From Thermus thermophilus (lineage in GTDB: Bacteria; Deinococcota; Deinococci; Deinococcales; Thermaceae), in NCBI RefSeq assembly GCF_019974155.1, contig NZ_AP025158.1:1922001-1986000 (forward strand): 64,000 bases of DNA. Reading direction: 5' to 3'. Position numbers and translations under genes: made by a program. Positions 46,675-62,395 of this stretch are shown here, piece by piece. How positions within the stretch are numbered: the stretch's first letter is position 1; each line of letters starts with the position of its first letter. The notes below the pieces were generated by a model, which was given only the letters and a program-made list of their open reading frames with translations, had not been told where the DNA came from and did no database searches.

Positions 46675-46690
46675 AAACGCCTCCCGCCCG

Positions 46691-46696
46691 ATTATA
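46691..46696 (-). promoter_or_regulatory. -10 box of the fba promoter
   Basis: A perfect TATAAT (minus strand, 46691-46696) is 16 nt before the fba ATG. The -35 region is not evident. Between 46697 and 46810 I see no gene; it contains the end of the pilT transcript and this promoter. Confidence 0.6.
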
Positions 46697-46810
46697 CCCC
46701 CTCTGGAAGCGTGGAACGGCCCCATCCCATATGGACTCGGGCCAGCGTGGGGGCCCGGAAAAGGGTTTCCAGGGGGCTTCTTTTGGGCCAGGCAGGCGAG
46801 GGGAAGAGCG

Positions 46811-47917
46811 TCAGTAAGTCTGCCCCGTGGCCTTGGTGAGGAGGAGCCGGAACTCGTGGGGGCCGGTGGCGGCGGAAAGGGCGTCCTCCAGGGAGATGAG
46901 CCCCTCGGTGTAGAGCTCCACCAGGTGCTGGTCAAAGGTGCGCATCCCGTAGAGGGACCCCTCCATCATGGCCTCCTTGATCTGGGGCGTCTTCTCCTCG
47001 TCCTTGAGAAGCTCCCGCACGTAGGGGGTGGCGATGAGGATCTCCAAGGCGAGGACCCGGCCCTGGCCGTCGGCCTTGGGGAGGAGGCGCTGGGAGAGGA
47101 TGCCGAGGAGGGACTCGGCGAGGAGGATGCGCACCTGACGGTGCTCGTGCAGGGGGAAGAAGTCAATGATCCGGTTGATGGTCCGCCAGGCGTCCAGGGT
47201 GTGGAGGGTGGAGAGGACCAGGTGGCCCGTCTGCGCCGCCATGAGGGCGGCCTCCACCGTCTCCTTATCCCGCATCTCCCCCACCATGATCACGTCGGGG
47301 TCCTGGCGGAGGGCGTACTTGAGGCCGGTGTAGAAGCTGTCCGTGTCCAGCCCCACCTCCCGCTGGACCACGAGGCTCTTCTTGTGCTTGTGCAGGAACT
47401 CAATGGGGTCCTCAATGGTGATGATGTTCTTGGCGTAGTGGAGGTTGATGTGGTCAATGAGGGCCGCCAGGGTGGTGCTCTTGCCGCTCCCCGTGGGCCC
47501 CGTGACCAGGATGAGGCCCCGCTCCTTGGCGGCGAGGCCCTCCATCACCTCCCGGGGGAGGCCCAGGGCCTCAAAGCTCGGGATCACCTCGGAGACCACC
47601 CGCATCACCAGGCCTAAGCTCCCCCGTTGCCTCAGGAGGTTGCAGCGGAAGCGGGCCACCCCGGGAATGGTGTAGGCGAAGTCCATCTCCTTGCGGTACT
47701 CCAGCTCCTCCAGCTGTTCCGGGGTGAGGAGGGCCCGGGCGATGGCCTCGGTGTCCTTGGGGGTGAGGGGGCGGCTACCGAAGGGGCGGAGCTTGCCGTC
47801 TATCCGGACGGTGGGGGGGGCTCCGGCCTGCAGGTGGATGTCCGAGGCCCGGGCCTGGACCATGGCCTTCAGCATCTCCACGAGGCTCTGCTTGCCCTGG
47901 CCTTGGGCCTCGCTCAT
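46811..47917 (-). CDS. pilT: Twitching motility ATPase PilT
   Basis: A 368-residue hexameric ATPase that retracts type IV pili. Walker A is GPTGSGKSTTLAALID (with ITIEDPIEFLHKHK), the Asp box SEEDPDVIMVGEM-like DPDVIMVGEMRDKET and the His box GHLVLSTLHT are present. Related secretion ATPases (PilF, PilB) would be longer. Its start overlaps the panC stop by 4 nt, an operon of two unrelated genes. Confidence 0.92.
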   Translation of the reverse strand: MSEAQGQGKQSLVEMLKAMVQARASDIHLQAGAPPTVRIDGKLRPFGSRPLTPKDTEAIARALLTPEQLEELEYRKEMDFAYTIPGVARFRCNLLRQRGSLGLVMRVVSEVIPSFEALGLPREVMEGLAAKERGLILVTGPTGSGKSTTLAALIDHINLHYAKNIITIEDPIEFLHKHKKSLVVQREVGLDTDSFYTGLKYALRQDPDVIMVGEMRDKETVEAALMAAQTGHLVLSTLHTLDAWRTINRIIDFFPLHEHRQVRILLAESLLGILSQRLLPKADGQGRVLALEILIATPYVRELLKDEEKTPQIKEAMMEGSLYGMRTFDQHLVELYTEGLISLEDALSAATGPHEFRLLLTKATGQTY

Positions 47918-48744
47918 GGGTAGACCTCCAAGTTGTCAATAAGCCGCGCCTCGGGGAACCTCCCGGCCACGATCCCCCTGGCCCCTGCGACCCAGTCGGA
48001 AAGGGGCAGGAGGGTCTCGGGGTGGACGATGGCGAGGTAGTCCTTGCGGAACTCGGGCACCCCCGCCAAGACCTCCTCCCCCGCCCGGAGCGCCTCGGCC
48101 ACGCTTCCCCCCCGCCCCGCCACCTCCCGCATGGCCAAAAGGGCCCGGTAGAGCACGGGGGCCTTCCTGCGGGTCTCGGGGGAGAGGTAGACGTTGCGGC
48201 TGGAAAGGGCGAGGCCGTCCTCCTCCCGCACCGTGGGCACCCCCACCACCTCCACGGGGAAGCCCAGGTCCCGGACCATCCGCCGCACCACGAGGAGCTG
48301 CTGGTAGTCCTTCTCCCCGAAGTAGGCCCTTTGGGGCTGGACCAAAAGGAAAAGCCGCGCCACCACCGTGGCCACCCCCTGGAAGTGGCCGGGGCGCACC
48401 GCCCCCTCCCAAAGGGCGGTGAGGGGACCCTCCACCTGGACCCGGGTGGCGAAGCCCTCGGGGTACATCTCCTCCACGCCGGGGGCGAAGAGGAGGTCCA
48501 CCCCCGCCTCCTCCAAAAGGGCCCGGTCCCGCTCCAGGTCCCGAGGGTAGCGGTGGTAGTCCTCCCCGGGGCCGAACTGGAGGGGGTTGACGAAGACGGA
48601 GACCGCCACGAAGGGGTTCTCCCGCCGGGCCCGTTCCACCAGGGCGAGGTGCCCCCGGTGGAGGTAGCCCATGGTGGGGACGAAGCCCACGCCCTCCCGG
48701 GGCAGGGCCCGGCGCAGCTCGGCCACGGTGCTCACGGTTCTCAC
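47914..48744 (-). CDS. panC: Pantothenate synthetase
   Basis: A 276-residue enzyme that ligates pantoate and beta-alanine. The nucleotide motifs PTMGYLHRGHLALVERAR and SSRNVYLSPETR and GDRPL-like loop RAYFGEKDYQQL are present. GTG at 48744 lies 7 nt after a minus-strand -10 box; GTG at 48735 is the alternative. Divergent from the membrane protein at 48766 across a shared promoter. Confidence 0.93.
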   Translation of the reverse strand: MRTVSTVAELRRALPREGVGFVPTMGYLHRGHLALVERARRENPFVAVSVFVNPLQFGPGEDYHRYPRDLERDRALLEEAGVDLLFAPGVEEMYPEGFATRVQVEGPLTALWEGAVRPGHFQGVATVVARLFLLVQPQRAYFGEKDYQQLLVVRRMVRDLGFPVEVVGVPTVREEDGLALSSRNVYLSPETRRKAPVLYRALLAMREVAGRGGSVAEALRAGEEVLAGVPEFRKDYLAIVHPETLLPLSDWVAGARGIVAGRFPEARLIDNLEVYP

Positions 48745-48751
48745 GGTCCCC

Positions 48752-48759
48752 AGTATACT
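48752..48759. promoter_or_regulatory. Shared palindromic -10 box between panC and the 92-residue membrane protein
   Basis: AGTATACT (48752-48759) is its own reverse complement, giving TATACT on both strands. The GTG of panC is 7 nt away on one side and the GTG of the plus-strand gene is 6 nt away on the other, so both would be transcribed as leaderless mRNAs from overlapping promoters. No -35 box was found on either side. Confidence 0.65.
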
Positions 48760-48765
48760 TTCCCC

Positions 48766-49044
48766 GTGGGCAAGAAGAAGCGGCAGGAGAAGCTCAAGAA
48801 GAAGGCCCTGAAGGAGTGGGAGGCCCGCAGGCCCAAGACCTTCCGGCAGTTCCTCCCCTACCTTCCCGGGATCTTCCTCCGGACCACCCTGGTCATGACG
48901 GCGGCCGTGACGGTGATCGTGGTCCTCGGGGCCCTGGGCCTCCCTTGGGCCGCCCACTTCTGGTTCCAGTTCGCCGTCTACTTGGCCTTCTACCTGGCCT
49001 TTCAGCGGTTCATCATGGGGCCCCTGGCCCCGCCCAAGGTCTAG
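48766..49044 (+). CDS. Small basic membrane protein
   Basis: A 92-residue protein: a strongly basic head (GKKKRQEKLKKKALKEWEARR), then two transmembrane segments (about 44-62 and 66-84). No family known to me. GTG at 48766 is set by the -10 box 6 nt upstream; upstream in-frame sequence is antisense to panC. It converges on rsfS. Confidence 0.7.
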   Translation: MGKKKRQEKLKKKALKEWEARRPKTFRQFLPYLPGIFLRTTLVMTAAVTVIVVLGALGLPWAAHFWFQFAVYLAFYLAFQRFIMGPLAPPKV

Positions 49045-49101
49045 GCCTACCCCCACGTCGGCCTGCGCCCGCACGGGGCGGTCCCCAGGGGGCCGGGGTA
49101 C

Positions 49102-49443
49102 TTAAAGCCGCTCGGCGTCGGCCCAGAAGCCCTCGAGGTCGTAGTACTCCCGGGCCTCGGGGGTCATGAGGTGGACGACCACCTCCCCGTAGTCCAGGAC
49201 CACCCAACGGGGGCTCTGGCCCGCGGTGGGCCGGGGGCGGAGGTCCTCCTCCTCCAGCTTTTCCAGGAGGTGCCGCTCCAGGGCCTGCAAGTGGGGGGTG
49301 CTGGTGGCGCTGGCGACCACGAAGTAGTCCAGGGTCTCCGAGACCCGGCGCAGGTCCAGGGCCACCACGTTTTCCGCCTTCTTTTCCGCGAGGAGTTCCT
49401 TGATCCGCTGGATCAGCGCTACCGCCTCCTTGGTCTTGACCAT
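49102..49443 (-). CDS. rsfS: Ribosomal silencing factor RsfS
   Basis: A 113-residue protein of the RsfS/Iojap family: VALDLRRVSETLDYFVVASATSTPHLQAL and SPRWVVLDYGEVVVHLMTPEAREYYDLEGFWADA. It binds L14 to block subunit joining in starved cells. Last gene of the obg-nadD-yqeK-LCP operon. The upstream intergenic gap to the plus-strand gene is 57 nt. Confidence 0.95.
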   Translation of the reverse strand: MVKTKEAVALIQRIKELLAEKKAENVVALDLRRVSETLDYFVVASATSTPHLQALERHLLEKLEEEDLRPRPTAGQSPRWVVLDYGEVVVHLMTPEAREYYDLEGFWADAERL

Positions 49444-49449
49444 CTGCCC

Positions 49450-50547
49450 CTAGTGTAGCAGGTCCGGCCCGAGCTCCACCACCACCTCGGCCAAGGGCTG
49501 GTGGGGGGCGATGACGGGAAGGTGGAACAGGCCCGCGTAGTAACGGCCCACCGCCGGGTCGGTGGCGTAAACGGCGCTCCGGGCCACCTCGGCCTCCTCC
49601 GTCCACACCTCCACCCCCTCCCGCTCCAGGAAAGCCCGGCCCCAGGCGATGAGCCCGGCGTCCCCCCTCAAGCGCACCGGGAGGCCGGGGGGCGGGGTGA
49701 GGGGCGGCCCCCCGAAAAGGGCGGAAAGAAGCTCCCCCCTGCGCGCCTCGTCCACGTAGAGGTAGGTGCCCGCCCCCTCCCGCGTGGGCAGGGTGGCCAG
49801 GGCCACCTGGAAATCCCGGGCGTAGGGAAGGTAATCCAGAACCTCCTCCAGGCTGAGGTCGGTGTCCAGCTCGCGCCACACCTCCCGCAGGGCGGCCGCC
49901 AGGGCGGGCCAGACCCGGGGGTCCTGGGCCTTTCGGGCCACCTGGGTGGCCACAGCCTTGATCCGGTCCAGGCGAGCGTAGTCCCCCAGGGCATCGTGGC
50001 GGAAGCGCATGTACTTCACCGCCTCTTCCCCGGAGAGGTGGAGCCTGCCGGCGGGGAAGTCAATGTAGAGGTTCGCCGCCCGGTCCACGTAGCGCATGGG
50101 GCGGTCCAGGTACACCTCCACCCCCCCCACGGCGTCCACCACGCGGGCCACCCCCTCCAGGGTGAAGACGAGGTGCCGCTCCGCCACGAGGCCCGTGGCC
50201 TCCTCCACCGCTCGTTTCAAGAGCTCAGGGCCTCCCCGGCCGTAGGCGGCGTTGATCTTCCCGCCCACAAGGGGGCTGTAGAGGTCCCGGGGAACGGCCA
50301 CGCCCACGGCCTCCCCCCCGCGGACGCGGACGTAGAAGATGGTGTCCGTCCGGCTTCCCGGGCCGCAAGGGGTGCGGGGGGCGCAGTAGTCGATGTCCCG
50401 GGCGGCCACCACCACCCCCATCTCCGGCACCGGGCCCGTCCGCTTGGGGGCGGAGGTGGAAAGGGCGGCGGGCCTCGGCCAGGAGAGGACCCCCCCAAGG
50501 GCGAAAAGGGCCAAGGCGAGGAGGAAGAAGGAGAGGCGGGGACGCAT
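49450..50547 (-). CDS. LytR-CpsA-Psr (LCP) family protein
   Basis: A 365-residue membrane-anchored protein (TM about 5-22) with the LCP core: RTDTIFYVRVRGGEAVGVAVPRDLYSPL, GGKINAAYGRGGPELLKRAVEEATG, and GGVEVYLDRPMRYVD with the Arg/Asp residues that bind polyprenyl pyrophosphate. The C-terminal LytR_C-like region starts near 240. LCP enzymes attach glycans to peptidoglycan or anchor proteins. ATG 50547 overlaps yqeK by 1 nt. Confidence 0.9.
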   Translation of the reverse strand: MRPRLSFFLLALALFALGGVLSWPRPAALSTSAPKRTGPVPEMGVVVAARDIDYCAPRTPCGPGSRTDTIFYVRVRGGEAVGVAVPRDLYSPLVGGKINAAYGRGGPELLKRAVEEATGLVAERHLVFTLEGVARVVDAVGGVEVYLDRPMRYVDRAANLYIDFPAGRLHLSGEEAVKYMRFRHDALGDYARLDRIKAVATQVARKAQDPRVWPALAAALREVWRELDTDLSLEEVLDYLPYARDFQVALATLPTREGAGTYLYVDEARRGELLSALFGGPPLTPPPGLPVRLRGDAGLIAWGRAFLEREGVEVWTEEAEVARSAVYATDPAVGRYYAGLFHLPVIAPHQPLAEVVVELGPDLLH

Positions 50548-51092
50548 CAGAGGCTGTGGTAGACCTCCAGGGTCCTGGGGTGGATGGGGATCTTCTTGGC
50601 CTTGAGGTAGTGGACCTTGTTCCGCACCGCCAGGCGGTACGCCTCCTTAAGCCGGCCCGCCAGGGCGAGCTCTCGGATCTCCCCGTTCACCCCCCGGCCG
50701 GGCTCGGAGACGTCCGCCACGTAGAGGGCCATGCCGATCCCGTTTTCGGGGTCCACGCCGTAGACGTGGCCCTCGATGGCCTCGAGGACCTCCTCGTCCC
50801 GCACCCCCCAGGAGGCGGCCAAGGCCCGGGCCGCCCGCCCGTGGAGGGCGAGGGGGTGGGCCTCCTCCACCTCGTTCTCCGGGGGGGCGAGGCGCCTCAG
50901 CTCCTCCTCCGGGAGGTCCCGGGCGGCATCGTGGAGCAGGCCCGCCAGGTAAGCCCGCTCGGGGTCCAGCCCGTTGTTGCGGGCGATCTCCCGGGCGAGC
51001 TCCGCCACCCGGCGGATGTGCTCCATGCGCTCGGGACGGACGAGGCTTTGGACCTTGGCCTCCAGATCAGCGATAGAGACCGTGCTTTTCAA
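50547..51092 (-). CDS. yqeK: YqeK HD-domain bis(5'-nucleosyl)-tetraphosphatase
   Basis: A 181-residue HD-domain hydrolase: RPERMEHIRRVAELAREIARNNGL, LLHDAARDLPEEELR (His-Asp), HALHGRAARALA-like LALHGRAARAL, and GHVYGVDPENGIGMALYVADVSEPGR. It hydrolyses Ap4A. The start TTG at 51092 is inside nadD but is preceded by GGAGGTG with 4 nt spacing, so it is the best start. Confidence 0.88.
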   Translation of the reverse strand: MKSTVSIADLEAKVQSLVRPERMEHIRRVAELAREIARNNGLDPERAYLAGLLHDAARDLPEEELRRLAPPENEVEEAHPLALHGRAARALAASWGVRDEEVLEAIEGHVYGVDPENGIGMALYVADVSEPGRGVNGEIRELALAGRLKEAYRLAVRNKVHYLKAKKIPIHPRTLEVYHSL

Positions 51093-51627
51093 TGTACACC
51101 TCCACCGCGCGCGGAACCCAGTAGCGCACGCTCCTTCCCTCCCTTAGCCGGCGGCGGATCTCGGTGCTGGAGATGCCCACCTCGGGCACGAAGAGGGGCA
51201 CCACCGGGAGGGGCGCCTCCTCCAAAGGGTAGCCGGGCCGGGCCACGGCCACCAGGGTGGCGTACTCGGGAAGCCGCTCCCCTTCCTTCCAGGTGAGAAC
51301 GTCCCGGTAGGCGTCGGCCCCGGTAATGAAGAAGAGCTCGTCCTCGGGGAAAAGGCGCCGCGCCTCGCGCAGGGTGTCCACCGTGTAGCTCGGGCCCGGG
51401 CGGTCCAGCTCCAGCCGGGAGACCGTAAACCGCGGGTCCTCCGCCACGGCCAGGAGGGTCATCTCGTAGCGGGCCTCGGCAGAGGCCACGGGGACCTTGT
51501 GGGGCGGGCGGGCCGCCACCACGAAGAGCACCCGGTCCAGGCGCAAAACCTCCTGGGCTTGGCTTGCCGCCAGGAGGTGACCCAGGTGGATGGGGTCAAA
51601 ACTCCCCCCGAAGAGCCCGATCCGCAC
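51067..51627 (-). CDS. nadD: Nicotinate-nucleotide adenylyltransferase
   Basis: A 186-residue NaMN adenylyltransferase of NAD synthesis: [20 protein letters not shown] at the start, [34 protein letters not shown], and [13 protein letters not shown]. Its GTG start at 51627 directly abuts the obg stop (TGA GTG), and its 3' end overlaps the yqeK start by 26 nt. Confidence 0.95.
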
Positions 51628-52878
51628 TCAGACCTCCGGGATGTACTCAAACTCCAGCCCCCCGATGCGCACCAGGTCCCCCGCCCGCACGCCCTTGGCC
51701 CGGAGGGCGGCCTCCACCCCCTGGCGCCGGAAGACCTCCTGCAGGTATCCGGCCGCCTCCATCAAATCCCCCTTGATCCGGGCGAGGTACCGCTCCACCT
51801 CGGGGGCCCGGACCTCGTAGACCCCCTCGGCCACGGGCACCACCTCCACCCCGGCCTGGACCTCCTTCCGGGGCACGGGCTTGGGCATCTCCGGCGGGGG
51901 GGTGGAACGGACCAGGGCGTGGAGCGCCTCTTTAAGGGCAGGAAGCCCCGTCCCCGTGAGGGCGCTTACGGGAAGCACGGCGAGCCCCTCCCGGGCCAGG
52001 GCGTCCGCCAGGGCCTTCACCGCCTCCTCCTCGAGGAGGTCCACCTTGTTGAGGGCCACGAGGCTCGGCCGGCGCAGGAGGGCGGGGTCGTAGGCCCCGA
52101 CCTCCTTCCTGAGGGTCTCCAGGGTCTTAAGGGGTTCGTCTGCGGCGTCCAGCACGTAGAGCAGGACCCGGGTGCGGGCGATGTGGCGCAGGAACTCGAG
52201 GCCCAAACCCTTCCCCTCGCTCGCCCCCTCAATGATCCCGGGAATGTCCGCCAGGGTGAAGCGCTCCTCCTCGGAAACCTCCACCACCCCGAGGTTGGGG
52301 CTCAGGGTGGTGAAAGGGTAGGGGGCGATCTTCGGGTGGGCCCGCGTCATGGCGGCGAGGAGGCTGGACTTCCCCGCGTTGGGGTAGCCCACGAGGCCCA
52401 CGTCGGCGATGAGCATGAGCTCCAGCCGGAGCCTGCGCTTCTCCCCTTCTTCCCCCGCCTCGGCGAAGCGGGGAGCCTGGCGGGTAGGGGTGACGAAGTG
52501 CATGTTGCCCCGGCCGCCCGCGCCGCCCCGGGCCACCAGAACCGTCTGCCCCTCCTCGGTGAGGTCGGCGAGGAGCTCCCCAGTGTCGGCGTCAAAGACC
52601 CGGGTCCCCCGAGGAACCTCGATGACGAGGTCCGCCCCCCCGCGGCCGTGCTGCTGGCTTCCCCGGCCGTGCTCCCCGTCCTCCGCCTTGTAGATGCGTT
52701 TGGAGAGGCGGGAAAGGGAGTCCACGCTCCCCCGGGCCCGGAGGTAGACGGACCCTCCCCGTCCCCCGTCCCCCCCGTCGGGCCCCCCTTTGGGAACGAA
52801 CTTCTCCCGGCGGAAGGAAACGGCGCCGTCGCCACCCCTACCGGCGGCGACGGTGATCACCAGGACGTCTTGGAACAT
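51628..52878 (-). CDS. obg: GTPase Obg
   Basis: A 416-residue Obg GTPase. The Gly-rich OBG fold (about 1-158: [29 protein letters not shown]) is followed by the G domain with [11 protein letters not shown] (G1), [16 protein letters not shown] (G3) and NKVDLL (G4), and a C-terminal OCT-like domain. It works with the ribosomal proteins L21 and L27 in the same operon to mature the 50S subunit. Confidence 0.96.
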
Positions 52879-52887
52879 TACGCCCGC

Positions 52888-53145
<258 letters not shown>

Positions 53146-53148
53146 ACC

Positions 53149-53454
53149 TCACCCCCGGATCTCCTTGATGAGGAGCTCGGTATAGGGCTGGCGGTGGCCC
53201 TTCTTCCTGCGGTACTGGACCTTGGCCTTGAACTTGGAAACCAGGATCTTCTTGCCCCGGCCATGGCCCAGCACCTCGGCCACCACGCTGGCCCCCTCCA
53301 CCACCGGGGTGCCCACCACGGTCTTCTCCCCGCCCAGGAGGAGGACGGGAAGCTCCACGGTGGCCCCGGGCTCCGCGTCCAGCTTCTCCACCCGAAGCTT
53401 AAGGCCGGGCTCTACCCGGTACTGTTTGCCGCCTGTCTTCACGATCGCGAACAT
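53149..53454 (-). CDS. rplU: 50S ribosomal protein L21
   Basis: A 101-residue L21: [21 protein letters not shown], then [34 protein letters not shown]. It is the first gene of the rplU-rpmA-obg operon with its own promoter upstream. Confidence 0.97.
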
Positions 53455-53494
53455 GCCACACCTCTGCCGGGCCCCCGGGCCCTACCGGTCTTCC

Positions 53495-53523
53495 ACTATA
53501 GACCAGCGGGGGCGTAACCGCAA
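53495..53523 (-). promoter_or_regulatory. Promoter of rplU-rpmA-obg operon
   Basis: Minus strand TTGCGG (53518-53523) and TATAGT (53495-53500) with 17 nt spacing. Transcription would start near 53488, giving a ~33-nt leader. It sits between the tRNA-Ala terminator and rplU. Confidence 0.75.
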
Positions 53524-53526
53524 GCT

Positions 53527-53547
53527 AAAACCCCCCTTTCGGGGGGT
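53527..53547 (-). terminator. Terminator of tRNA-Ala
   Basis: Minus-strand hairpin CCCCCC-GAAA-GGGGGG (arms 53541-53546 and 53531-53536) followed by TTTT, directly after the tRNA 3' end. Confidence 0.85.
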
Positions 53548-53551
53548 GTTT

Positions 53552-53627
53552 TGGTGGAGCCGAGGGGATTCGAACCCCTGACCTCCTCAATGCCATTGAG
53601 GCGCGCTCCCAACTGCGCCACGGCCCC
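53552..53627 (-). tRNA. tRNA-Ala (anticodon GGC)
   Basis: A 76-nt tRNA with encoded CCA. The acceptor stem is GGGGCCG/CGGCTCC with a G3-U70 pair, the identity element of tRNA-Ala. The anticodon stem is CCTCA/TGAGG with loop ATGGCAT, giving anticodon GGC (Ala). The T loop GTTCGAATC is intact. Confidence 0.96.
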
Positions 53628-53638
53628 AGGCAACGCCC

Positions 53639-53667
53639 ATGGTACCGAGGAGGGCCCGCTTTGTCAA
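53639..53667 (-). promoter_or_regulatory. Promoter of tRNA-Ala
   Basis: Minus strand TTGACA (53662-53667) and TACCAT (53639-53644), 17 nt apart. The -35 overlaps the last codons of secG, so tRNA transcription does not depend on the secG transcript. Confidence 0.75.
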
Positions 53668-53891
53668 CGGGGCCAGAGGCCGATGACCAAGGCCAGGGCC
53701 GCGAAAACCACCCCCAGGATCACCGTGAGGCGGTAGAGCCCTCCCGTCACGCCCCGGGCGGAGAAGAGGTCGGCCGAGCCCCCCATGAGGTCCCCGGCCC
53801 CCTGCTTGGGCTCCTGCACCAGCACGAGGTAGACCAGTAGCCCGGCCACGCCGAGGTAGATGAGGATGACCAAGGTGTAGAGCAGGTCCAT
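53664..53891 (-). CDS. secG: Preprotein translocase subunit SecG
   Basis: A 75-residue SecG: first membrane helix LVILIYLGVAGLLVYLVLVQEPKQGAG, cytosolic GGSADLF, second helix TVILGVVFAALALVIGL. It completes the SecYEG channel. ATG at 53891 (MDLLYTL) is the family start; longer frames overlap the tRNA-Thr promoter. Confidence 0.93.
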   Translation of the reverse strand: MDLLYTLVILIYLGVAGLLVYLVLVQEPKQGAGDLMGGSADLFSARGVTGGLYRLTVILGVVFAALALVIGLWPR

Positions 53892-53919
53892 GCCCCCCAC
53901 TCTACCAGAGGGGGACCGG

Positions 53920-53948
53920 TTGCGGGAAGTGGCCCCTTGGTTTACACT
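53920..53948 (+). promoter_or_regulatory. Promoter of tRNA-Thr
   Basis: TTGCGG (53920-53925) and TACACT (53943-53948) 17 nt apart; transcription would begin about 53955, 6 nt before the tRNA. Divergent from secG. Confidence 0.75.
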
Positions 53949-53960
53949 CTCAAGGGGCGG

Positions 53961-54035
53961 GCCGGTGTAGCTCAGCGGTAGAGCAACCGCCTCGTAAGCG
54001 GTAGGCCGCCGGTTCAAATCCGGCCACCGGCTCCA
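53961..54035 (+). tRNA. tRNA-Thr (anticodon CGT)
   Basis: A 75-nt tRNA with encoded CCA. Acceptor stem GCCGGTG/CACCGGC, anticodon stem ACCGC/GCGGT with loop CTCGTAA, anticodon CGT (Thr), T loop GTTCAAATC. It is intact, and its 3' 45 nt are also found at 59280-59324; it is the integration site of the island described below. Confidence 0.96.
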
Positions 54036-54049
54036 CACCAGAACGCAAA

Positions 54050-54085
54050 AACCCCCGCCTTACTCTCAGGGCGGGGGTTGCTTTT
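54050..54085 (+). terminator. Terminator after tRNA-Thr (island side)
   Basis: AACCCCCGCC (54050-54059) pairs with GGCGGGGGTT (54070-54079), then GCTTTTG. It lies 15 nt after the tRNA and belongs to the island sequence. Confidence 0.8.
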
Positions 54086-54147
54086 GACCAATACCTTCGT
54101 GTGCTACTTGATCTGGACCCTCGGGGTGTGAAAAAAGAGGGGGTGCT

Positions 54148-54807
54148 ATGCAGCAAAATCGTGAGCACCCCCTTTACCATCTTGACGCAGAAACCCTCCT
54201 CGTGGCTACCTACATCTGGGTAGGTCACGGGCTTAGCCCGTACCTTGCTGACGAACCGAAAGCCCTGCAGGCCCAAGGATTCAAGCTCCCCCCAAAGCAA
54301 AAGCACCAGAAAGCTACCCTGGCCGAGCTCCTGACCCTCGCCATCTGCAAGATACGGCCTTCGGCCGTGACCCTCCTGTTGCAAGGCCAGGACCTCGCCA
54401 AAGGCTACCTGGCCGCCAAGACCACCCTCAAGGCCTACTTCCCCTCCCTCCCCCACCTCTCCCGCTTCTATCGGGTCCTTCAGAAGGCTCAGGGGTTGTT
54501 GGCTCACCTGGCCATAAGGCTCTCCGGAGGGCAAGGTCTTCTGCAGGTGGTGGCCCCCAAGCTACGGGCCTCGCCCGTGACCAAACCCATCCCCCTGGCC
54601 CACGGCCACCGGATTCACGGCTTGGACCTCCCTGAGGCCGCTGTGGGGGTGGGCCCCCTGGGGGCTTTCGCGGGCTACGTTCTCATGCCGGTGATGAACG
54701 AGCGCGGCCTCTTTTGGAACCTAGCCCCTTCGGGGCTGACCCGTTGGGCTATCCTCGTGGCAGGAAGGGGTGGTGCCCCCGGGGGCGGAGGCCCTGCCGC
54801 GCCCTGA
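54148..54807 (+). pseudogene. Truncated DDE transposase
   Basis: The first ~150 residues (LDAETLLVATYIWVGHGLSPYL, ATLAELLTLAICKIRPSAVTLLL, PSLPHLSRFYRVLQ) and the segment HGLDLPEAAVGVGPLGAFAGYVLMPVMNERGLFW look like an IS4/IS982-type DDE transposase. The first catalytic Asp expected before PIPLAHGH is replaced (VTKPIP) and the chain breaks off into unrelated sequence after about residue 200; the last ~30 residues probably continue in another frame at 54800-54895 (ALTKKGRVVHDALEAV). It is not a working transposase. RBS-like GAGGGGG precedes ATG 54148. Family assignment is tentative. Confidence 0.65.
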
Positions 54808-54895
54808 CCAAGAAGGGACGGGTGGTCCACGACGCCCTCGAGGCCGTGGTCCGGGCGGTGATGACGCGGGGGGCAGAGGGAAGGGGGCGGGCGTT

Positions 54896-55123
54896 TTAAA
54901 GCGCCTCGAACTCCTCGGGGGTGAGCCCTGCCTGGCGTAGGATGCTCCTCAGGGTGCCCACGGCGATTTCCCGGTGGGCGGGGACGATGGCCACGTGAAG
55001 CCCGTGCGGGTCTTCCCTGACGAACTTCACGTGACTTCCCTTCTAGGAGTGGACGACAAACCCCGCCGCCTCGAGGCGGCGCTTCACCTCCCGGTAGGGA
55101 AGCGGCCTAAGCGGCGGGGCCAA
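54896..55123 (-). pseudogene. hicA: HicA-like toxin gene with an in-frame stop
   Basis: In the frame starting TTG at 55123: PLRPLPYREVKRRLEAAGFVVHS, then TAG (55043-55045), then KGSHVKFVREDPHGLHVAIV and GTLRSILRQAGLTPEEFEAL to the TAA at 54896. This is a textbook HicA apart from the stop codon two residues before the catalytic GSH motif. Without it the protein would be about 75 residues. The intact HicB antitoxin gene is directly upstream. Confidence 0.75.
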
Positions 55124-55316
55124 GCTCCACCTCTACCGTGCGCACCACGGGGGCGCGCTCCGGGGTGGGAGGCTCGAAGTAGAGCTCCAGGGCCTCCTTA
55201 AGGTTCTTCAAGGCCTCCTCCTCGGTTTCCCCCTGAGAGGCCACGTCTACCTCGAGGCACTGGGCCACCCAGAGGTCCCCTTCCCGCCAGAGGTGGGCCG
55301 TAAAGCGCCGGGTCAT
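55107..55316 (-). CDS. hicB: HicB-like antitoxin
   Basis: A 69-residue HicB: FTAHLWREGDLWVAQCLEVDVASQGETEEEALKNLKEALELYFE, typical of the short HicB form. Its 3' end overlaps the hicA frame by 17 nt, as in other hicBA pairs. With the toxin frame broken, this antitoxin has no obvious partner inside the island. Confidence 0.85.
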   Translation of the reverse strand: MTRRFTAHLWREGDLWVAQCLEVDVASQGETEEEALKNLKEALELYFEPPTPERAPVVRTVEVELGPAA

Positions 55317-55400
55317 GACCTCATGATAGCGCCCTCTACACCGGCGGGAGGCTCACGCGGCGGCGGGAAGGAGGGGGCGGGGCGTTTCTGCAAGTTTTGA

Positions 55401-55700
55401 GTCAACCTGGACGTGGCCGAGGTGTTCAGGCCCGTCCTCGCCGACCGGTTGGTCTTCCGCCTCGTGCGCAGGGGGCAGGTGAAGCCGGGGCACTTCCTCC
55501 GAGAGGGGGAAGGGGTCTTCCTCTCCGAGGCGGGAAGGAGGCTTGTAGTGGAGGAGTGGGAGAAGACCCTCCAGACCACCTACCAGCACCGCGCCTTGAG
55601 GCGGGCCGTCTCCTACAGGACCACCTTGCGCCTGGAGCTCTACAAGCTGGAAAAGCACCTGATTGGGGAACAGCCCTACACCCCCTACCGCCTGCGCTGA
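55401..55700 (+). pseudogene. cas1: C-terminal fragment of cas1
   Basis: From 55401 the frame reads VNLDVAEVFRPVLADRLVFRL, and continues with GHFLREGEGVFLSEAGRRLVVEEWEKTL, RRAVSYRTTLRLELYKLEKHLIGEQPYTPY. This matches the last ~100 residues of type I-B-like Cas1, including the LDxAE-F-RP segment of the active-site region; the catalytic Glu and His upstream are missing. There is no cas2, and the array starts 188 nt further on. A stop precedes the fragment (55398-55400), so it is a remnant. Confidence 0.85.
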
Positions 55701-55757
55701 ACTTTGACCAAGTCCAAGTTGGCGCCAACCCCCAATCCCCCCCAAAACCCGGGGGGG

Positions 55758-55786
55758 TTGACGCACACCCCCCGACCTGCTACATT
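55758..55786 (+). promoter_or_regulatory. CRISPR leader promoter
   Basis: TTGACG (55758-55763) and TACATT (55781-55786) with 17 nt spacing lie in the AT-richer leader between cas1 remnant and first repeat. Transcription from about 55793 would give a ~95-nt leader RNA before the first repeat. The repeats end GAAAC in the same direction, as expected for crRNA 5' handles. Confidence 0.75.
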
Positions 55787-55887
55787 GACCCTAGGCGGCT
55801 GGGCCTTTTCCACCTCGGCCGCAGGGGTTCTTGAAAACGAAGATTAGAGTTCCGTGAGAGCCTAGCGTGCAGGACAGCATTTTGGCT

Positions 55888-57996
55888 CTTTTGACCGTAC
55901 CTATGAGGGTTTGAAACAATACGCCCTGGCCTGGGAGGGCCTAGGGGTGCGCACCTTTTGACCGTACCTATGAGGGTTTGAAACTGGTACGGGACTGCCC
56001 GAAGTATCTCCGCCACAGGAACCTTTTGACCGTACCTATGAGGGTTTGAAACCCTGCCCACCTGGTCCGACGAGGAGCTGGAAGAGTGGGCTTTTGACCG
56101 TACCTATGAGGGTTTGAAACTTCAAGTCGGATGGCTGGTTCACCATTCCGAGGCTGCTTTTGACCGTACCTATGAGGGTTTGAAACAGCCAAATGTCCTG
56201 CCCACCCTCTTCATCGGGGGGCTTTTGACCGTACCTATGAGGGTTTGAAACTAGCATTACCAGTCGGTTTTGCAAAGTCCCACCCCTCTTCTTTTGACCG
56301 TACCTATGAGGGTTTGAAACAGCCCCGCGAAGGCCCAGGGGGGCACCCCCAGGGCCCTTTTGACCGTACCTATGAGGGTTTGAAACATGGGGAGTGGAGT
56401 TTCGGCGAGCGTGGTTTCTAGGCGCTTTTGACCGTACCTATGAGGGTTTGAAACAGCGTCACGGTCACGAGGTTGGAGGAGGTCCGCTTTTGACCGTACC
56501 TATGAGGGTTTGAAACCGTGAATAGCTCCCACCCTTTCATGTGGTCCTCGCGAGCTCCTTTTGACCGTACCTATGAGGGTTTGAAACAAGGCCTGGGCGC
56601 TCCATGCCACCTGGCTGGACCTTCTTTTGACCGTACCTATGAGGGTTTGAAACAGGTCTTCGGGAGGGGGTGGGTGCGCCGCGTGGCCGCCCTTTTGACC
56701 GTACCTATGAGGGTTTGAAACCGAATAGCCATAGCGGCTTTCTCTTCTGTAGCCACCCTTTTGACCGTACCTATGAGGGTTTGAAACGCCGCCCTGGGCT
56801 CATCCCGAGGACTGGGAGGCTTCCTTTTGACCGTACCTATGAGGGTTTGAAACTTGAGGAGCCTATCTTCCGCCAGCAACTTAAGCATCGCTTTTGACCG
56901 TACCTATGAGGGTTTGAAACCCCTTTACGCCCGCAAGGACGCGGCGGACCAGCTCCGCTTTTGACCGTACCTATGAGGGTTTGAAACATCAATTCGGCAA
57001 CTTGGCAAGAGGCTGAGCGGCTTCTTTTGACCGTACCTATGAGGGTTTGAAACCGCCTACCCCTCGGCCTCGCCGAGGGGCTTAAGCGCCCCTTTTGACC
57101 GTACCTATGAGGGTTTGAAACCTGGTAGACCTCAACCGAGCGGCGCCAGAAACCGGGCCTTTTGACCGTACCTATGAGGGTTTGAAACTTGCGGTTCCCC
57201 GGAGTGGCCTCCCGGGCGAACTCGTCTTTTGACCGTACCTATGAGGGTTTGAAACAGGAACTGGTGGGGGTGCTCAAGGCTCTCACCGCGGCCCCTTTTG
57301 ACCGTACCTATGAGGGTTTGAAACGCCCCACAAGTGGAAAGCCTTATGGCCCGCGCCCTGGCTTTTGACCGTACCTATGAGGGTTTGAAACTTAGTAGAG
57401 ATTCTCCGTCTCCTCCAATGCACTTTGCTTTTGACCGTACCTATGAGGGTTTGAAACCCTCAAAGGCAATCTCCGGGGCGATGCTATAAACCTTGCTTTT
57501 GACCGTACCTATGAGGGTTTGAAACCGCAGAGTTCCCCCCGGAGGGGGGGTCCCCCCCAGAAGCTTTTGACCGTACCTATGAGGGTTTGAAACTTTTTTT
57601 CCTTCATCTCCTCCTCCTTTCCCCCTGGCTTTTGACCGTACCTATGAGGGTTTGAAACAGTTCTCCCTCGATCCACCAGCGGTGCTTCACGTTTCCCCTT
57701 TTGACCGTACCTATGAGGGTTTGAAACTCTTTAGGGGGGGTTATAGGGGGGGAGGTGGGAGATTTCTTTTGACCGTACCTATGAGGGTTTGAAACTTTGC
57801 TGCCAATAGATTGCGTCACGAGCGGCCCCCACCTTTTGACCGTACCTATGAGGGTTTGAAACTTGTAGTCCACGGACTGGATGATGCACCGCTGCCACAC
57901 CTTTTGACCGTACCTATGAGGGTTTGAAACCCGGGTATAAGACCCACTCCGATTATGGGCCCGGTCGTTTTGACCGTACCTATGAGGGTTTGATAA
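55888..57996 (+). CRISPR. CRISPR array, 32 repeats, type I-B-like 30-nt repeat
   Basis: Thirty-one identical 30-nt repeats plus one degenerate terminal repeat (57967, GTTTTG start and TGATAA end) with 31 spacers of 32-41 nt. The repeat begins CTTTTGACCGTACC and ends GAGGGTTTGAAAC. The degenerate end repeat and the promoter on the left place the leader at the 55888 side. The repeat has a weak hairpin (CCTATGAGG). The cas1 fragment next to it is of type I-B-like kind; no other cas gene is in the window. Confidence 0.97.
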
Positions 57997-58018
57997 GAAA
58001 TCCCCCTGATCCATTCCC

Positions 58019-58996
58019 TCAGCATCCTCCCGGCCACCAGTGAAAGAGGGTATGGCTCCGAATCAGGCCCGGCTGGGTCTGCAGGTAGGCGCACCGGGCC
58101 TCCACCCTCGCCCAAAGCTCCTCCTCCGTCTCCACCCGCCCGTTGGCCACCACCGCGTCCACCAGGGGCCACACCCGCGTCCAAGACCAAAAGCAAAAGC
58201 TTCCCCTCCCCAGCCCCACGCAACCGGGCAAAGCGCCCCAGGACCTCCGAGAAGGCCACAGCGTTCACCGTGGGCAAAAGCCAAAACTCGCTCTCCCCTG
58301 TACCCGGACGCACGAAGCCGTACACGTAAAGCCACCGGTACCGCGGCCGCACCCAGGCCAGGGGCGTCTTCCCCCGGGGCGCCCACACCCGCCGGTACAC
58401 GGGCTTCAGGCCCAACCTGTGTTCGTCAAAAGCCCAAAGCTCCAGGACAAGCCAGGGGAAGAGGCACTTCAGGAGGACAACGGTGAAGAAGAGTTTTTTT
58501 TGAAGGCCTCCCCCTCTTCCACGTCCCTCTCCCGGTGCCGGGGACGGGGGCGGAGGGGGGCGAAGCCCAGGCGCTTCATCCAGGTCCAGGCCCGCCTGGG
58601 GTCCACGGGACGGCCCAGCCTCTCCGAGAGCCACAGGGCGGCGTTCCTTATCGTCCATATCCCCTCCTGGGGATGGGGCTGGAGGAGGGCCTGGCGGAAG
58701 GCTTCCTGAAGCTCCGGGGAGAGCAAGGGGGGCTGGCCTGGGTTTTGGTGCCGGAGGTCGGCCATGGGCTGGCCTTCGTTGTAGCGGTGGAGGGTGTTGC
58801 GGACCCAGCGGGTGGAGTAGCCCAGGGTCTGGGCCACCTGGGGGATGGAGTGGCCTGTGGCGAGGAGCCAGATGGCGTGCCAGCGGGCGCGTTCCACGGG
58901 GTCCTCGCTTTCCCGGTAGAGGGCGTGCAGGTTGTCCGGGTGATGCCGCAGCTTGAGTTCCAGCCGGGGGCGGCGTTGGTGTTTGGTCAGCCGCAT
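58019..58996 (-). pseudogene. Broken IS630-family transposase
   Basis: Frame 1 (58996-58469) starts MRLTKHQRRPRLELKLR and carries the helix-turn-helix domain IWLLATGHSIPQVAQTLGYSTRWVRNTLHRYN. It ends at an A8 run (58494-58501), where a -1 slip gives KKKLFFTVVLLKCLFPWLVLELWAFDEHRLGL with the first catalytic Asp-Glu and then LLLLVLDAG with the second Asp. The rest of the DDE domain is missing: near 58165 the sequence jumps to PLVDAVVANGRVETEEELW and FHWWPGG in another frame. So the frameshift may be programmed (as in active IS630 elements) but the element is also internally deleted. 58997-59279 shows no gene. Confidence 0.8.
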
Positions 58997-59279
58997 GACC
59001 CCATACTAAGAGAAAAACCCAGGGGGAGTTCTTATGAGGGACTTGGCCCGCTTCCTTTGGGAGATGGCAAACCGCTTGGAGGGGTGGGCGCGGCAAAACT
59101 CCTCCAAAGCGCAGTCCCTGAGGGAAAAAGTCAGGGGTTTGGCCTGAGGATAGACCAAGATTTTGACCAATAAGCAACGGGGAACAGCAAGAACCAACGG
59201 CAACCAAAACCCCCCTAAAGTACCCTTTTGAACGCTTTTCGCCACAACCGCCTTCCCCAAAAGCCCGGTTTTAGGGGAG

Positions 59280-59324
59280 CTCGTAAGCGGTAGGCCGCCG
59301 GTTCAAATCCGGCCACCGGCTCCA
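59280..59324 (+). repeat. attR-like copy of the tRNA-Thr 3' end
   Basis: The 45 nt from CTCGTAAGCGG to the CCA end are identical to 53991-54035. The 5' half of the tRNA is absent, so this is not a second tRNA gene. Upstream sequence (TTTTAGGGGAG) differs completely from the tRNA, as expected at an integration boundary. Confidence 0.9.
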
Positions 59325-59329
59325 GCCGA

Positions 59330-59351
59330 GGCCCCGGGTGCACCCGGGGCC
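59330..59351 (+). terminator. Former tRNA-Thr terminator
   Basis: A 22-bp perfect palindrome (GGCCCCGGGTG/CACCCGGGGCC) followed by TTCTCCTT, 5 nt after the tRNA fragment. It would have terminated the tRNA before the island inserted. Confidence 0.75.
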
Positions 59352-59376
59352 TTCTCCTTGCCCTCAAGCGCAAGCC

Positions 59377-59405
59377 TTGACGCATAACGCATAAGGGGTT
59401 AGCCT
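59377..59405 (+). promoter_or_regulatory. Promoter of rtcB
   Basis: TTGACG (59377-59382) and TAGCCT (59400-59405), 17 nt apart. Transcription would begin near 59411, about 45 nt before the rtcB start, and through a hairpin. Confidence 0.7.
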
Positions 59406-59415
59406 AAAGATGAGC

Positions 59416-59445
59416 CCGGGCCGTCTGGCCCGGACGTTGTTTTTA
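59416..59445 (+). promoter_or_regulatory. Hairpin and T-run in the rtcB leader (possible attenuator)
   Basis: CCGGGCC (59416-59422) pairs with GGCCCGG (59427-59433), loop GTCT, and is followed by ACGTTGTTTTTAG. This resembles an intrinsic terminator placed between the promoter and the rtcB start. The short frame ATG at 59410 overlaps it and continues in frame with rtcB, so a leaderless longer product (16 extra residues) is another possibility. Confidence 0.5.
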
Positions 59446-59457
59446 GAGGAGGGCCCC

Positions 59458-62334
59458 ATGCGCTTTGAGAAGATCGCCCCCTACACCTACCGCATCCCCC
59501 GGCAGGGGAAGATGCGGGTGGACGCTGTTTTCTTCGCCTCAAAGGAGATCCTAAAGGACCTCGAGGCGGAAAACTACGCCTCCTTGCAGCAGCTCATGAA
59601 CGTGGCCACCCTCCCGGGCATCGTGGAGCCCGCCCTGGCCATGCCCGACATCCACTGGGGCTACGGCTTCCCCATCGGGGGGGTGGCGGCCTTTGACCCG
59701 GAGGAGGGCGGGGTGGTGAGCCCGGGCGGCGTAGGGTTTGACATCAACTGCCTGCCCCCAGGAACCCGGATCCTCTTCCGCGACGGGTACACCCGCCCCA
59801 TAGAGGAGCTGGCGGAGGAAAGAGCCCCCAACCTGGTGGTGTGGCGGCTTGGGGAGCGCCCGGAAGCGGCCCAGGCGGCGCTTCTCCTTTCCCGGGAGGC
59901 GGAAGAACTCCTTAGGCTCCGCACCGAGGGCGGGTTCGTCCTGGAGGCGACCCCGGACCACCCCCTCTACACCCCCGAGGGGATGCGGCCTGCGGGCGCC
60001 TTGCGGCCGGGGGACCGGGTGGCGGTCCACCCCTTCCGGGGCCTTCCCTACGAGCCCCCTCCACCCCTATCCCTCCTCGAGGAGGAGGAAGCGGAAGCCT
60101 GGGCCCGGACCCTCGGCTTTCCCCAGGCGCCCCGGGAACTCCGGGCGCGGGGCCTTCTTCCCCTCCGGGCGGACCATCCCCACCTCCCCGCCCTCCTCCG
60201 CCTCCTGGGCTACGCCTTCGGGGACGGCACCCTTTACCGCTCGGGGGGGCGGGCCTACCTGGTCCTCTACGGGGAGGAGGAGGGGTTGCGGGAGGCCAAA
60301 GCCGACCTGGAGCGTCTGGGTTTCCGGGCAGGGGGACCCTACTTGCGCCGCCGCAACCCCACCTTCCGGGGGCGGACCTTTGACGCGGCGGAGGCGGGTC
60401 TGAAGGTGTCTTCCCGTGCCCTCTTCCTCCTCTTCCGCGCCCTCGGCCTCCCTGAGGGGGCCAAGGCCAAGCAGGGCTTCAGGCTGCCTGCTTGGCTCTT
60501 TGCCCTTCCTCCCTGGCTTAAGGCGAACTTCCTCGCGGGCCTTTTCGGGGCAGAGCTTTCCGCGCCCAAGGCCGTAAGCGGCCACGAGTACAACCTGGTC
60601 CCTCCGGTGCTTTCCCAATCCAAGCGCCGAAGCTTCCTGGAGGAAGGGCGTGCCTTCACCGAAGACCTCGCCCGCCTGGTGGCCTCCTTGGGCCTCGAGG
60701 TCCAGGACCTTCGCGAGGAGGCCGACTGGGAGGAACCCGAGGACCCCTCTCACCGCTTCAAGCTCATCCTCCGCTCCACGCCGGAGAACCTCGCCCGGCT
60801 TTACGAGGAGGTGGGCTACGCCTACGCTCCTAAGAAGGCGCGCCTCGCCCTTCTCGCCGCCCTTTACCTCCGCCTGAAACAGGCCCACCTGGCTCGGAGG
60901 GAGTCTATGGCCGCGGAGGTTTTGGCCCTGCGGGAGGCCGGCGAGAAGGTGGCGGCCATCGCCCACCGGCTTGGGGTGCCCCGCCGCTTCGCAGAGCGGA
61001 CGCTTTACGAGAAGCGGGGCGCTTTCCGGCCCCAGGGCCTTCCCACCTTCCCCGAGTTCGTGGCGGCGCAGGGGGCGATGCTCTTTGACCGGGTGGTGGC
61101 CGTGGAGCGGGTGCCTTACGGGGGGAAGGTGTACGACCTTTCCATGGCCCACCCGGACCACAACTTCGTGGCCGAGGGGTTCGTGGTCTCCAACTGCGGC
61201 GTCCGCCTCCTCGCCTCCCACCTCACCCTGGAAGACCTCCTCCCCCGCCAGAAGGAGCTCGCCGACGCCCTCTATCGCCTCGTCCCCTCGGGGGTGGGAA
61301 GCGAAAGGCGGGACGTGCGCTTTAGCAAAAAGGAGCTCAAAGAAATCCTCAAGGAGGGGGCGGGCTGGCTCGTGAAGCGGGGCTTTGGCTACCCCGAGGA
61401 CCTGGGCTTCATTGAGTCCCAAGGCCGCCTCCCCTGGGCCAACCCCGACAAGGTCTCGGAAAGGGCCTTTGAGCGGGGGGCCCCCCAGATCGGCACCTTG
61501 GGAAGCGGGAACCACTTCCTGGAGGTGCAGTACGTGGACGAGGTCTACGACGAGGAGGCGGCCGAGGCCTACGGGCTCTTCCGGGGACAGGTCACCGTCC
61601 TCATCCACACGGGAAGCCGGGGCTTAGGCCACCAGGTCTGCCAGGACTACGTGGAGCGCTTCCTCAAAGCCGCCCCCCGGTACGGCATTGAGCTCGTGGA
61701 CAAGCAGCTCGCCGCCGCCCCCATAAAGAGCCCCGAGGGCCAGGACTACCTCCAGGCCATGGCCGCCGCCGCCAACTTCGCCTTCGCCAACCGCCAGCTC
61801 ATCGCCCACTTCGTACGGGAGGCCTTTGAGAAGGTGGGCTTTACCCCCAGGGACCACGGCCTTAGGGTCCTCTACGACCTCGCCCACAACAACGCCAAGT
61901 TTGAGGAGCACGGGGGCAGGCGGGTCCTCGTCCACCGCAAGGGGGCCACCCGGGCCTTCGGCCCCGGCCACCCGGAGGTCCCCGAGGCCTACCGCCGGGT
62001 GGGCCAGCCCGTTTTGGTGCCCGGGGACATGGGCCGATACTCCTACGTCCTCGCGGGGACGGAAAAGGCCATGGCGGTTTCCTTCGGAAGTAGCTGCCAC
62101 GGGGCCGGGCGCAAGATGAGCCGCCACCAGGCCAAAAAGGTGGCCCGGGAGCGGAACCTGGTGAAGGAGCTTGCGGAAAGGGGCATCCTGGTGCGGGCCG
62201 CCACCCGGGCCACGGTGGACGAGGAGATGCCCGAGGCCTACAAGGACGTCTCCTTGGTGGTGGAGGCGGTGGAGGGAGCGGGGATCGGGAAAAAGGTGGC
62301 CCGCCTCAGGCCCCTCATCGTGGTCAAGGGGTAA
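59458..62334 (+). CDS. rtcB: RNA-splicing ligase RtcB with an intein
   Basis: A 958-residue precursor: 476 residues of RtcB interrupted by a 482-residue intein. RtcB joins 2',3'-cyclic phosphate to 5'-OH RNA ends using GTP and Mn2+. The extein has the metal-binding FDIN|CGVRLLAS, GTLGSGNHFLEVQ, AHNNAKFEEH and SSCHGAGRKMSRHQA with the guanylated-His region. GAGGAGGG precedes ATG at 59458; an in-frame ATG at 59410 would add 16 residues. It needs archease, found at 18903. Excision of the intein before Cys98 is required for activity. Confidence 0.95.
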   Translation: MRFEKIAPYTYRIPRQGKMRVDAVFFASKEILKDLEAENYASLQQLMNVATLPGIVEPALAMPDIHWGYGFPIGGVAAFDPEEGGVVSPGGVGFDINCLPPGTRILFRDGYTRPIEELAEERAPNLVVWRLGERPEAAQAALLLSREAEELLRLRTEGGFVLEATPDHPLYTPEGMRPAGALRPGDRVAVHPFRGLPYEPPPPLSLLEEEEAEAWARTLGFPQAPRELRARGLLPLRADHPHLPALLRLLGYAFGDGTLYRSGGRAYLVLYGEEEGLREAKADLERLGFRAGGPYLRRRNPTFRGRTFDAAEAGLKVSSRALFLLFRALGLPEGAKAKQGFRLPAWLFALPPWLKANFLAGLFGAELSAPKAVSGHEYNLVPPVLSQSKRRSFLEEGRAFTEDLARLVASLGLEVQDLREEADWEEPEDPSHRFKLILRSTPENLARLYEEVGYAYAPKKARLALLAALYLRLKQAHLARRESMAAEVLALREAGEKVAAIAHRLGVPRRFAERTLYEKRGAFRPQGLPTFPEFVAAQGAMLFDRVVAVERVPYGGKVYDLSMAHPDHNFVAEGFVVSNCGVRLLASHLTLEDLLPRQKELADALYRLVPSGVGSERRDVRFSKKELKEILKEGAGWLVKRGFGYPEDLGFIESQGRLPWANPDKVSERAFERGAPQIGTLGSGNHFLEVQYVDEVYDEEAAEAYGLFRGQVTVLIHTGSRGLGHQVCQDYVERFLKAAPRYGIELVDKQLAAAPIKSPEGQDYLQAMAAAANFAFANRQLIAHFVREAFEKVGFTPRDHGLRVLYDLAHNNAKFEEHGGRRVLVHRKGATRAFGPGHPEVPEAYRRVGQPVLVPGDMGRYSYVLAGTEKAMAVSFGSSCHGAGRKMSRHQAKKVARERNLVKELAERGILVRAATRATVDEEMPEAYKDVSLVVEAVEGAGIGKKVARLRPLIVVKG
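59749..61194 (+). other. RtcB intein with LAGLIDADG homing endonuclease
   Basis: Inserted before the active-site Cys of FDIN-CGVR (same site as known RtcB inteins). Splicing block A starts CLPPGTRILFRDG with Cys1, block B has LEATPDHPLYTPEG (TxxH), and the C-terminus is VAEGFVVSN with terminal Asn and Cys+1 in the extein. The middle holds LAGLIDADG motifs LLGYAFGDGTL and FLAGLFGAELS separated by ~110 residues, plus a helix-turn-helix stretch (LALREAGEKVAAIAHRLGVPRRFAERTL). The acidic D/E of the second motif is present as E, so activity is uncertain. Confidence 0.92.
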
Positions 62335-62395
62335 TCCCACCCCATGCTGGCTTGCGCCAGCATGGGGGTCCTGGCAAAGGGCTTCCTCGAGCCAG
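62335..62395 (+). repeat. Intergenic hairpin repeat downstream of rtcB
   Basis: CCCCATGCTGGC (62340-62351) and GCCAGCATGGGG (62356-62367), TTGC loop, then GTCCTGGCAAAGGG and GCTTCCTCGAGCCAGC. It is the same element as at 12961-13037 (read in reverse complement), with a C-to-T/G-to-A pair change in the stem that keeps the pairing. It lies right after the rtcB stop, like the other copy after gpsA. Confidence 0.8.

Follow-up and report, generated by a model that had tools for sequence, protein, structure and literature searches.

In the 64,000-nucleotide stretch of Thermus thermophilus DNA analyzed here (the window), an array of clustered regularly interspaced short palindromic repeats (CRISPR) lies within an island bounded by a tRNA gene and a partial copy of that gene. 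Specifically, ARAGORN calls an intact tRNA-Thr(CGT) gene at 53961-54035, and an exact second copy of its 3′-terminal 45 nucleotides (53991-54035) is found at 59280-59324, an offset of 5,289 bp. This direct repeat is identical at 45 of 45 positions, begins with the first base of the anticodon loop (CTCGTAA), and flanks the insert with the intact tRNA on one side; by our estimate the probability of such an exact repeat arising by chance in 64 kb is below 1e-15, which is negligible. A preliminary description of this DNA had stated that the 3′ end of the tRNA recurs about 5.3 kb downstream, and this is borne out exactly. The features of the locus, with the basis for each, are as follows.

53961-54035, + strand: intact tRNA-Thr(CGT) gene, the integration target, on the attL side (ARAGORN)
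53991-54035, + strand: left copy of the 45-nucleotide attachment (att) core, anticodon loop to CCA (boundary common to four genomes)
54036-54093, + strand: the 58 bp that remain of the integrative element's left end, up to and including the AATA target of the insertion sequence (IS) named IS-L (comparison with intact element L099)
54094-54715, + strand: the 5′ part of IS-L, an IS of 915 bp when complete, with the right side cut off (multi-copy in the window's own genome, G000)
54896-55316, − strand: HicA/HicB-like toxin-antitoxin remnant (open reading frames, weak Pfam matches, related DNA elsewhere)
55402-55754, + strand: 3′ end of cas1 and start of the intergenic region, a copy of the genome's own main cas locus (353 bp of identity to G000)
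55755-55887, + strand: CRISPR leader (comparison with the leaders of the own locus)
55888-57993, + strand: CRISPR array (31 repeats CTTTTGACCGTACCTATGAGGGTTTGAAAC, a truncated terminal repeat of the G type, and 31 unique spacers)
57994-59035, − strand: IS630-family IS, internally deleted (TA to TA, NCBIfam IS630)
59036-59279, + strand: the integrative element's right end, with the final codons of an AAA-ATPase gene at 59036-59148 (comparison with L099)
59280-59324, + strand: right copy of the att core, the displaced 3′ end of the tRNA (attR) (repeat; collinearity with genome G021 starts there)
59325-59373, + strand: native terminator of the tRNA-Thr gene with the region downstream, both displaced (match to G021)

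The interval had been described as entirely accessory, and the CRISPR array, cas1 remnant, HicBA-like genes and two ISs are indeed there, but it does not have a single origin, and its outermost 58 bp and 244 bp are the integrated element's own ends.

Comparison with other Thermus genomes, 27 of which were searched with the 45-mer, reveals an empty site. It is in G021, the nearest relative identified for this locus, which has one tRNA-Thr there; the window's flanks at 53000-54035 (97.9% identity) and 59280-59740 (93.7%) both align to this site and overlap by exactly 45 bp. Collinearity extends over 46001-54035 (96.8%) and 59280-62389 (94.6%), the latter beginning at the only tRNA copy of G021, and 59325-59373 matches the DNA directly 3′ of that tRNA. 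No CRISPR DNA is present at the tRNA-Thr site of G021. Hence, 5,289 bp were either gained in the window or lost in G021. A tRNA-Thr adjoining rtcB was not found in other Thermus genomes; there, a terminator and promoter-like sequence come after the tRNA in most cases, although in G012, G003 and G023 it is followed by element-like left ends, and in G002 and G025 by scars that resemble the left end and contain no recognizable integrase.

Second copies of the 45-mer occur in three further genomes, namely Thermus arciformis (G012; 9,429 bp apart), G003 (9,418 bp) and G023 (1,442 bp), and the same 45-nucleotide boundary is thus found in four genomes. The inserts of G012 and G003, each about 9.4 kb, are 99.5% alike and encode a tyrosine recombinase of 395 amino acids reading towards the tRNA (PF00589, 1.5e-29), together with a DUF7146/Toprim primase-like protein, a DUF3987 protein, a PIN-like protein of the VapC type and an AAA protein. 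Window positions 53961-54093 are 99% identical to intact element L099 and positions 59035-59326 are 97% identical to it; inside the att copies, the island shares with the intact elements only 54036-54093 (58 bp) and 59036-59279 (244 bp), the latter being found only in G000, G012 and G003. The integrase and replication genes are gone from the island; an integrase lies beside the att site in G012 and G003 and none does in the island. With element ends and no integrase, the island is a remnant rather than an active member of the tRNA-integrated elements, and by itself it can no longer move. No CRISPR array is present in the intact elements L099 and L100. A search of viral contigs gave no match to the element end, and the best listed plasmid matches of the intact element were confined to a module of the VapC region in T. 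thermophilus megaplasmids, which is not a free form of the element. Both tRNA copies in G000 have the T-loop sequence TTCAAAT. G012, G003 and G023 have TTCGAAT in the intact tRNA and TTCAAAT in the displaced copy, a pattern that looks as though the G allele came in with the element.

Taken together, the empty site in G021 and the intact integrase-bearing elements at the same tRNA and boundary in two genomes strongly support the site-specific integration at the tRNA 3′ end that had been proposed. The alignment with relatives that had been suggested as a check yielded the single tRNA-Thr and the 45-bp flank overlap of G021, and the suggested search of other strains for an integrase found a tyrosine integrase beside the same tRNA in G012 and G003, where the boundary at the anticodon loop is the one described earlier as typical of tyrosine-recombinase att sites.

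The tRNA-targeting integrase family is genus-wide in Thermus. Among 40 Thermus regions around related integrases, the integrase lies beside a tRNA 3′ end in 30, a partial tRNA copy lies 7-9.3 kb away in seven (an eighth listed match being a full second tRNA), and a CRISPR array is present in none. Sibling elements occur at tRNA-Val(CAC), tRNA-Ala(TGC) and tRNA-Arg(TCT) in several Thermus genomes (L202, L199, L201, L197, L216, L217, L218), with partial tRNA copies of 47-53 nucleotides at 7-9.3 kb; one is at tRNA-Val in G000 itself.

The junctions between the element ends and the CRISPR segment are occupied by ISs. Full copies of IS-L, which is multi-copy in G000, are 915 bp long with 4-bp target duplications (AATA, CATT, TATA). 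The copy in the window starts at 54094, right after AATA, with its transposase reading frame starting at 54148 and its last clear similarity to full copies at about 54715-54757. Where the window has GACCAATA followed by the IS, L099 reads GACCAATAACT; the AATA is therefore already present in the intact element, which, given the 4-bp duplications, indicates that IS-L inserted into the element's left end. The right part of IS-L is missing, and the HicBA-like remnant comes next, consisting of a HicB-like frame (55107-55316, with weak Pfam matches) and a neighboring hicA-like frame that contains a stop. The HicB-like DNA segment is also found in G026, G002, G009 and G004, and may be common cargo of tRNA elements; in G004 it adjoins a tRNA and an integrase remnant.

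At the right-hand seam, the IS630-family copy (NCBIfam IS630, 1e-25) retains both ends, which are inverted and read TAAGAA(A/C)TCCCCCTG, and lacks about 94 bp internally. It extends from one TA to another (57994-59035), with the truncated last CRISPR repeat on its left and element DNA on its right. No TA exists at this junction in the intact element, which points to a deletion that ran from the end of the IS and not to a plain insertion; direct insertion of IS630 into the element was considered as a candidate and is weakened by the same observation, with IS-end deletion providing the better fit.

The CRISPR segment itself has a traceable resemblance to the genome's main CRISPR locus, from which it lies more than a megabase away. 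The 95-amino acid C-terminus of Cas1 is encoded at 55413-55700 (Pfam Cas_Cas1, 5e-13; NCBIfam cas1_HMARI, 8e-31), and the tail as a whole (55402-55754) is identical at 353 of 353 positions to the main-locus cas1 (G000:C1:917577-917225), as compared with only 91.5% identity to the C-type locus of G025. At the main locus another IS now stands between cas1 and its array. This IS (G000:C1:916050-917224, locus L103), with ends CTGAGCTCTCATCACTTT, follows the cas1 stop codon and precedes the leader of main-locus array 1, and the cas1-leader junction without it would match that of the island. The first 46 nucleotides of the island's leader (55755-55800) are identical to both main-locus leaders and the last 87 differ at 15 positions; we take this abrupt divergence to be a recombination seam. 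The first base of the repeat is C in the island array and G in the main-locus arrays, and a C-type array directly follows cas1 in G025, which is another species. The island array has no spacer in common with either of the two main arrays or with G025, so spacers cannot be used to date the move of the array. The simplest reading would be that the island holds an array that once lay 3′ of cas1 in this lineage, and that the main locus now carries the other array type.

It is also worth considering whether the island array can still be used. It consists of 32 near-identical repeats from 55888 and 31 unique spacers of 32-41 nucleotides, with a leader, and the genome has a cas1/cas4/cas3 locus with the same repeat family. 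This family has been listed as I-A for Thermus (PMC6452258), whereas the best score of the Cas1 is for I-B. Phage Riverbug is matched by spacer 20 (37/37), phage MN1 by spacer 5 (34/35), and a Thermus tRNA-Ala(CGC) integrase region that is probably a prophage by spacer 13 (36/36); as a control, the best match of shuffled spacers reached 0.75 of spacer length. Main-array spacers likewise match tRNA-Ala(CGC) integrase regions. A 5′ TTG flank is present at the targets of three island spacers and two main-array spacers, but not at three other, mismatched targets. Because the repeats are intact, a leader is present, the spacers match phages and the TTG flank is shared, expression of the island array and its use in trans with the main-locus Cas proteins are probable. 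G007 and G019 have integrase regions at or close to tRNA-Ala(CGC) (L190, L192), probably Riverbug-like prophages, which contain targets of spacers from both island and main arrays, often with a 5′ TTG. One further candidate, a weak match of 21 of 22 nucleotides between spacer 22 and the intact element, was rejected because over the whole spacer it does not rise above chance in the shuffle control.

These observations are probably best explained by the decay of an integrated element, into which an IS-associated rearrangement brought part of the host's own CRISPR locus. A tyrosine-recombinase element of about 9.4 kb integrated at the 3′ end of tRNA-Thr(CGT), its own 45-nucleotide copy rebuilding the tRNA and the original 3′ end being pushed downstream, as the comparison of genomes shows. 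IS-L would then have inserted at AATA in the element's left end, and about 9 kb of the interior, including the integrase, would have been lost, a loss visible in the present state of the island. In its place lies a segment of the host's own CRISPR-cas locus (cas1 tail, leader and array), with IS-L and the hicBA fragment on one side and IS630 on the other. We infer the order of these events, as well as the IS-associated recombination or deletion. Several points weigh against this explanation. The island is available from only one strain for ordering the events; the array-proximal leader (15 of 87 nucleotides) and the C-type repeat differ from both main-locus arrays, so neither of them was recently copied to give the island array; the identity of the cas1 tail could have come from later gene conversion; and an outside source for the array part is possible given the C-type array beside cas1 in another species (G025). 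Furthermore, the elements in G012, G003 and G023 brought TTCGAAT, as opposed to the TTCAAAT of G000, and the actual donor variant was not seen.

Some of these same points favor the view that the array is genuine cargo, that is, that the element acquired the CRISPR segment before integration, in another cell of the same or a near lineage, and traveled with it, with the integrase later lost or supplied in trans. The array does lie inside exact attL and attR sites, standalone arrays with host-type repeats are known from integrated elements of Thaumarchaeota (PMC6563490), and the proximal leader and C-type repeat are unlike those of the genome's other arrays, with C-type arrays present in another species. 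However, neither the intact elements nor the 40 related integrase regions carry an array, the cas1 tail is identical to the resident cas1, and the CRISPR segment takes the place of the integrase and replication genes, such that the composite would need an integrase in trans. We regard cargo as improbable here, and less likely than capture after integration. The broader suggestion in the preliminary description, that arrays move as cargo of tRNA elements, is accordingly not supported by this locus, with ISs at both seams of the element and its integrase lost.

Far less credible are two readings that set integration aside or place the array first. A separate tandem or segmental duplication of the tRNA, with ordinary accessory DNA in between, has nothing to recommend it beyond the existence of the repeat, and is refuted by the empty site in G021 together with the intact relatives; the shared element ends begin immediately inside both copies, the 45-nucleotide boundary recurs in four genomes, and an integrase lies beside the tRNA in two. 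The preliminary description had named such a duplication, or the lack of an empty-site genome, as outcomes that would overturn its proposal, and this route to refutation is excluded. Equally remote is an array native to this chromosomal spot, with the element integrating beside or around it, for which no supporting point was found: G021 is collinear on both sides with no CRISPR DNA at the site, the tRNA-Thr of other Thermus genomes is followed by a terminator and promoter-like sequence, and the reading is refuted by the element ends, which lie outside the array on both sides.

Downstream of the island, rtcB (59410-62334, 974 amino acids) has an apparent intein-like insertion between GFDINC and VVSNCGVR.

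It is informative to examine this locus in light of known systems. In Thermus, ICETh1 integrates at tRNA-Ile (PMC7767461), and temperate phages integrate at tRNA 3′ ends, including IN93 and Tsatsa (45 bp of tRNA-Ile) and the Lalka phages at tRNA-Ala (PMC11437467). These share with the present case a tyrosine integrase beside the tRNA, duplication of some 45 bp at the tRNA 3′ end, and a tRNA restored by integration (PMC7767461, PMC11437467). Here, in contrast, the target is tRNA-Thr(CGT), the element of about 9.4 kb carries DUF3987, primase and PIN genes with no capsid or secretion genes recognized, and the window's copy is gutted. The integrative and conjugative elements (ICEs) NCAV2-E1 and NitIsl-E1 of Thaumarchaeota carry standalone CRISPR arrays, likewise without cas genes and with the repeat type of the host Cas system (PMC6563490); those arrays are described as ICE-borne, whereas here the element is dead and the array comes with a cas1 tail identical to the resident locus. 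In T. thermophilus HB27, CRISPR-1 and CRISPR-11 are separated by two transposase copies, again a case of arrays of one repeat type being separated or displaced by ISs (PMC10989782), although those arrays adjoin each other and the present segment sits in a tRNA island over a megabase from the main locus. CampyICE1 of Campylobacter also bears spacers on an integrative element, an ICE with CRISPR-Cas9 and anti-plasmid arrays (PMC8743540), but has its own Cas9 and a conserved structure, and no such conservation of CRISPR is seen here. The Thermus case joins these described kinds of element-borne or IS-split arrays, with unusually clear seams.

The intact 9.4-kb tRNA-Thr element of Thermus and the family of similar tRNA elements found across the genus are of use in their own right. 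One can also imagine, tentatively and with some doubt, that dead tRNA elements serve as safe landing sites which host arrays enter by IS-associated recombination, dispersing and diversifying arrays within a genome, with the island array growing independently. The locus offers a well-resolved example of how a standalone array may originate, in which integration, decay, IS insertion and capture of the cas1 tail, leader and array have each left a visible seam, and it cautions against taking every array flanked by attL and attR for cargo of the element.

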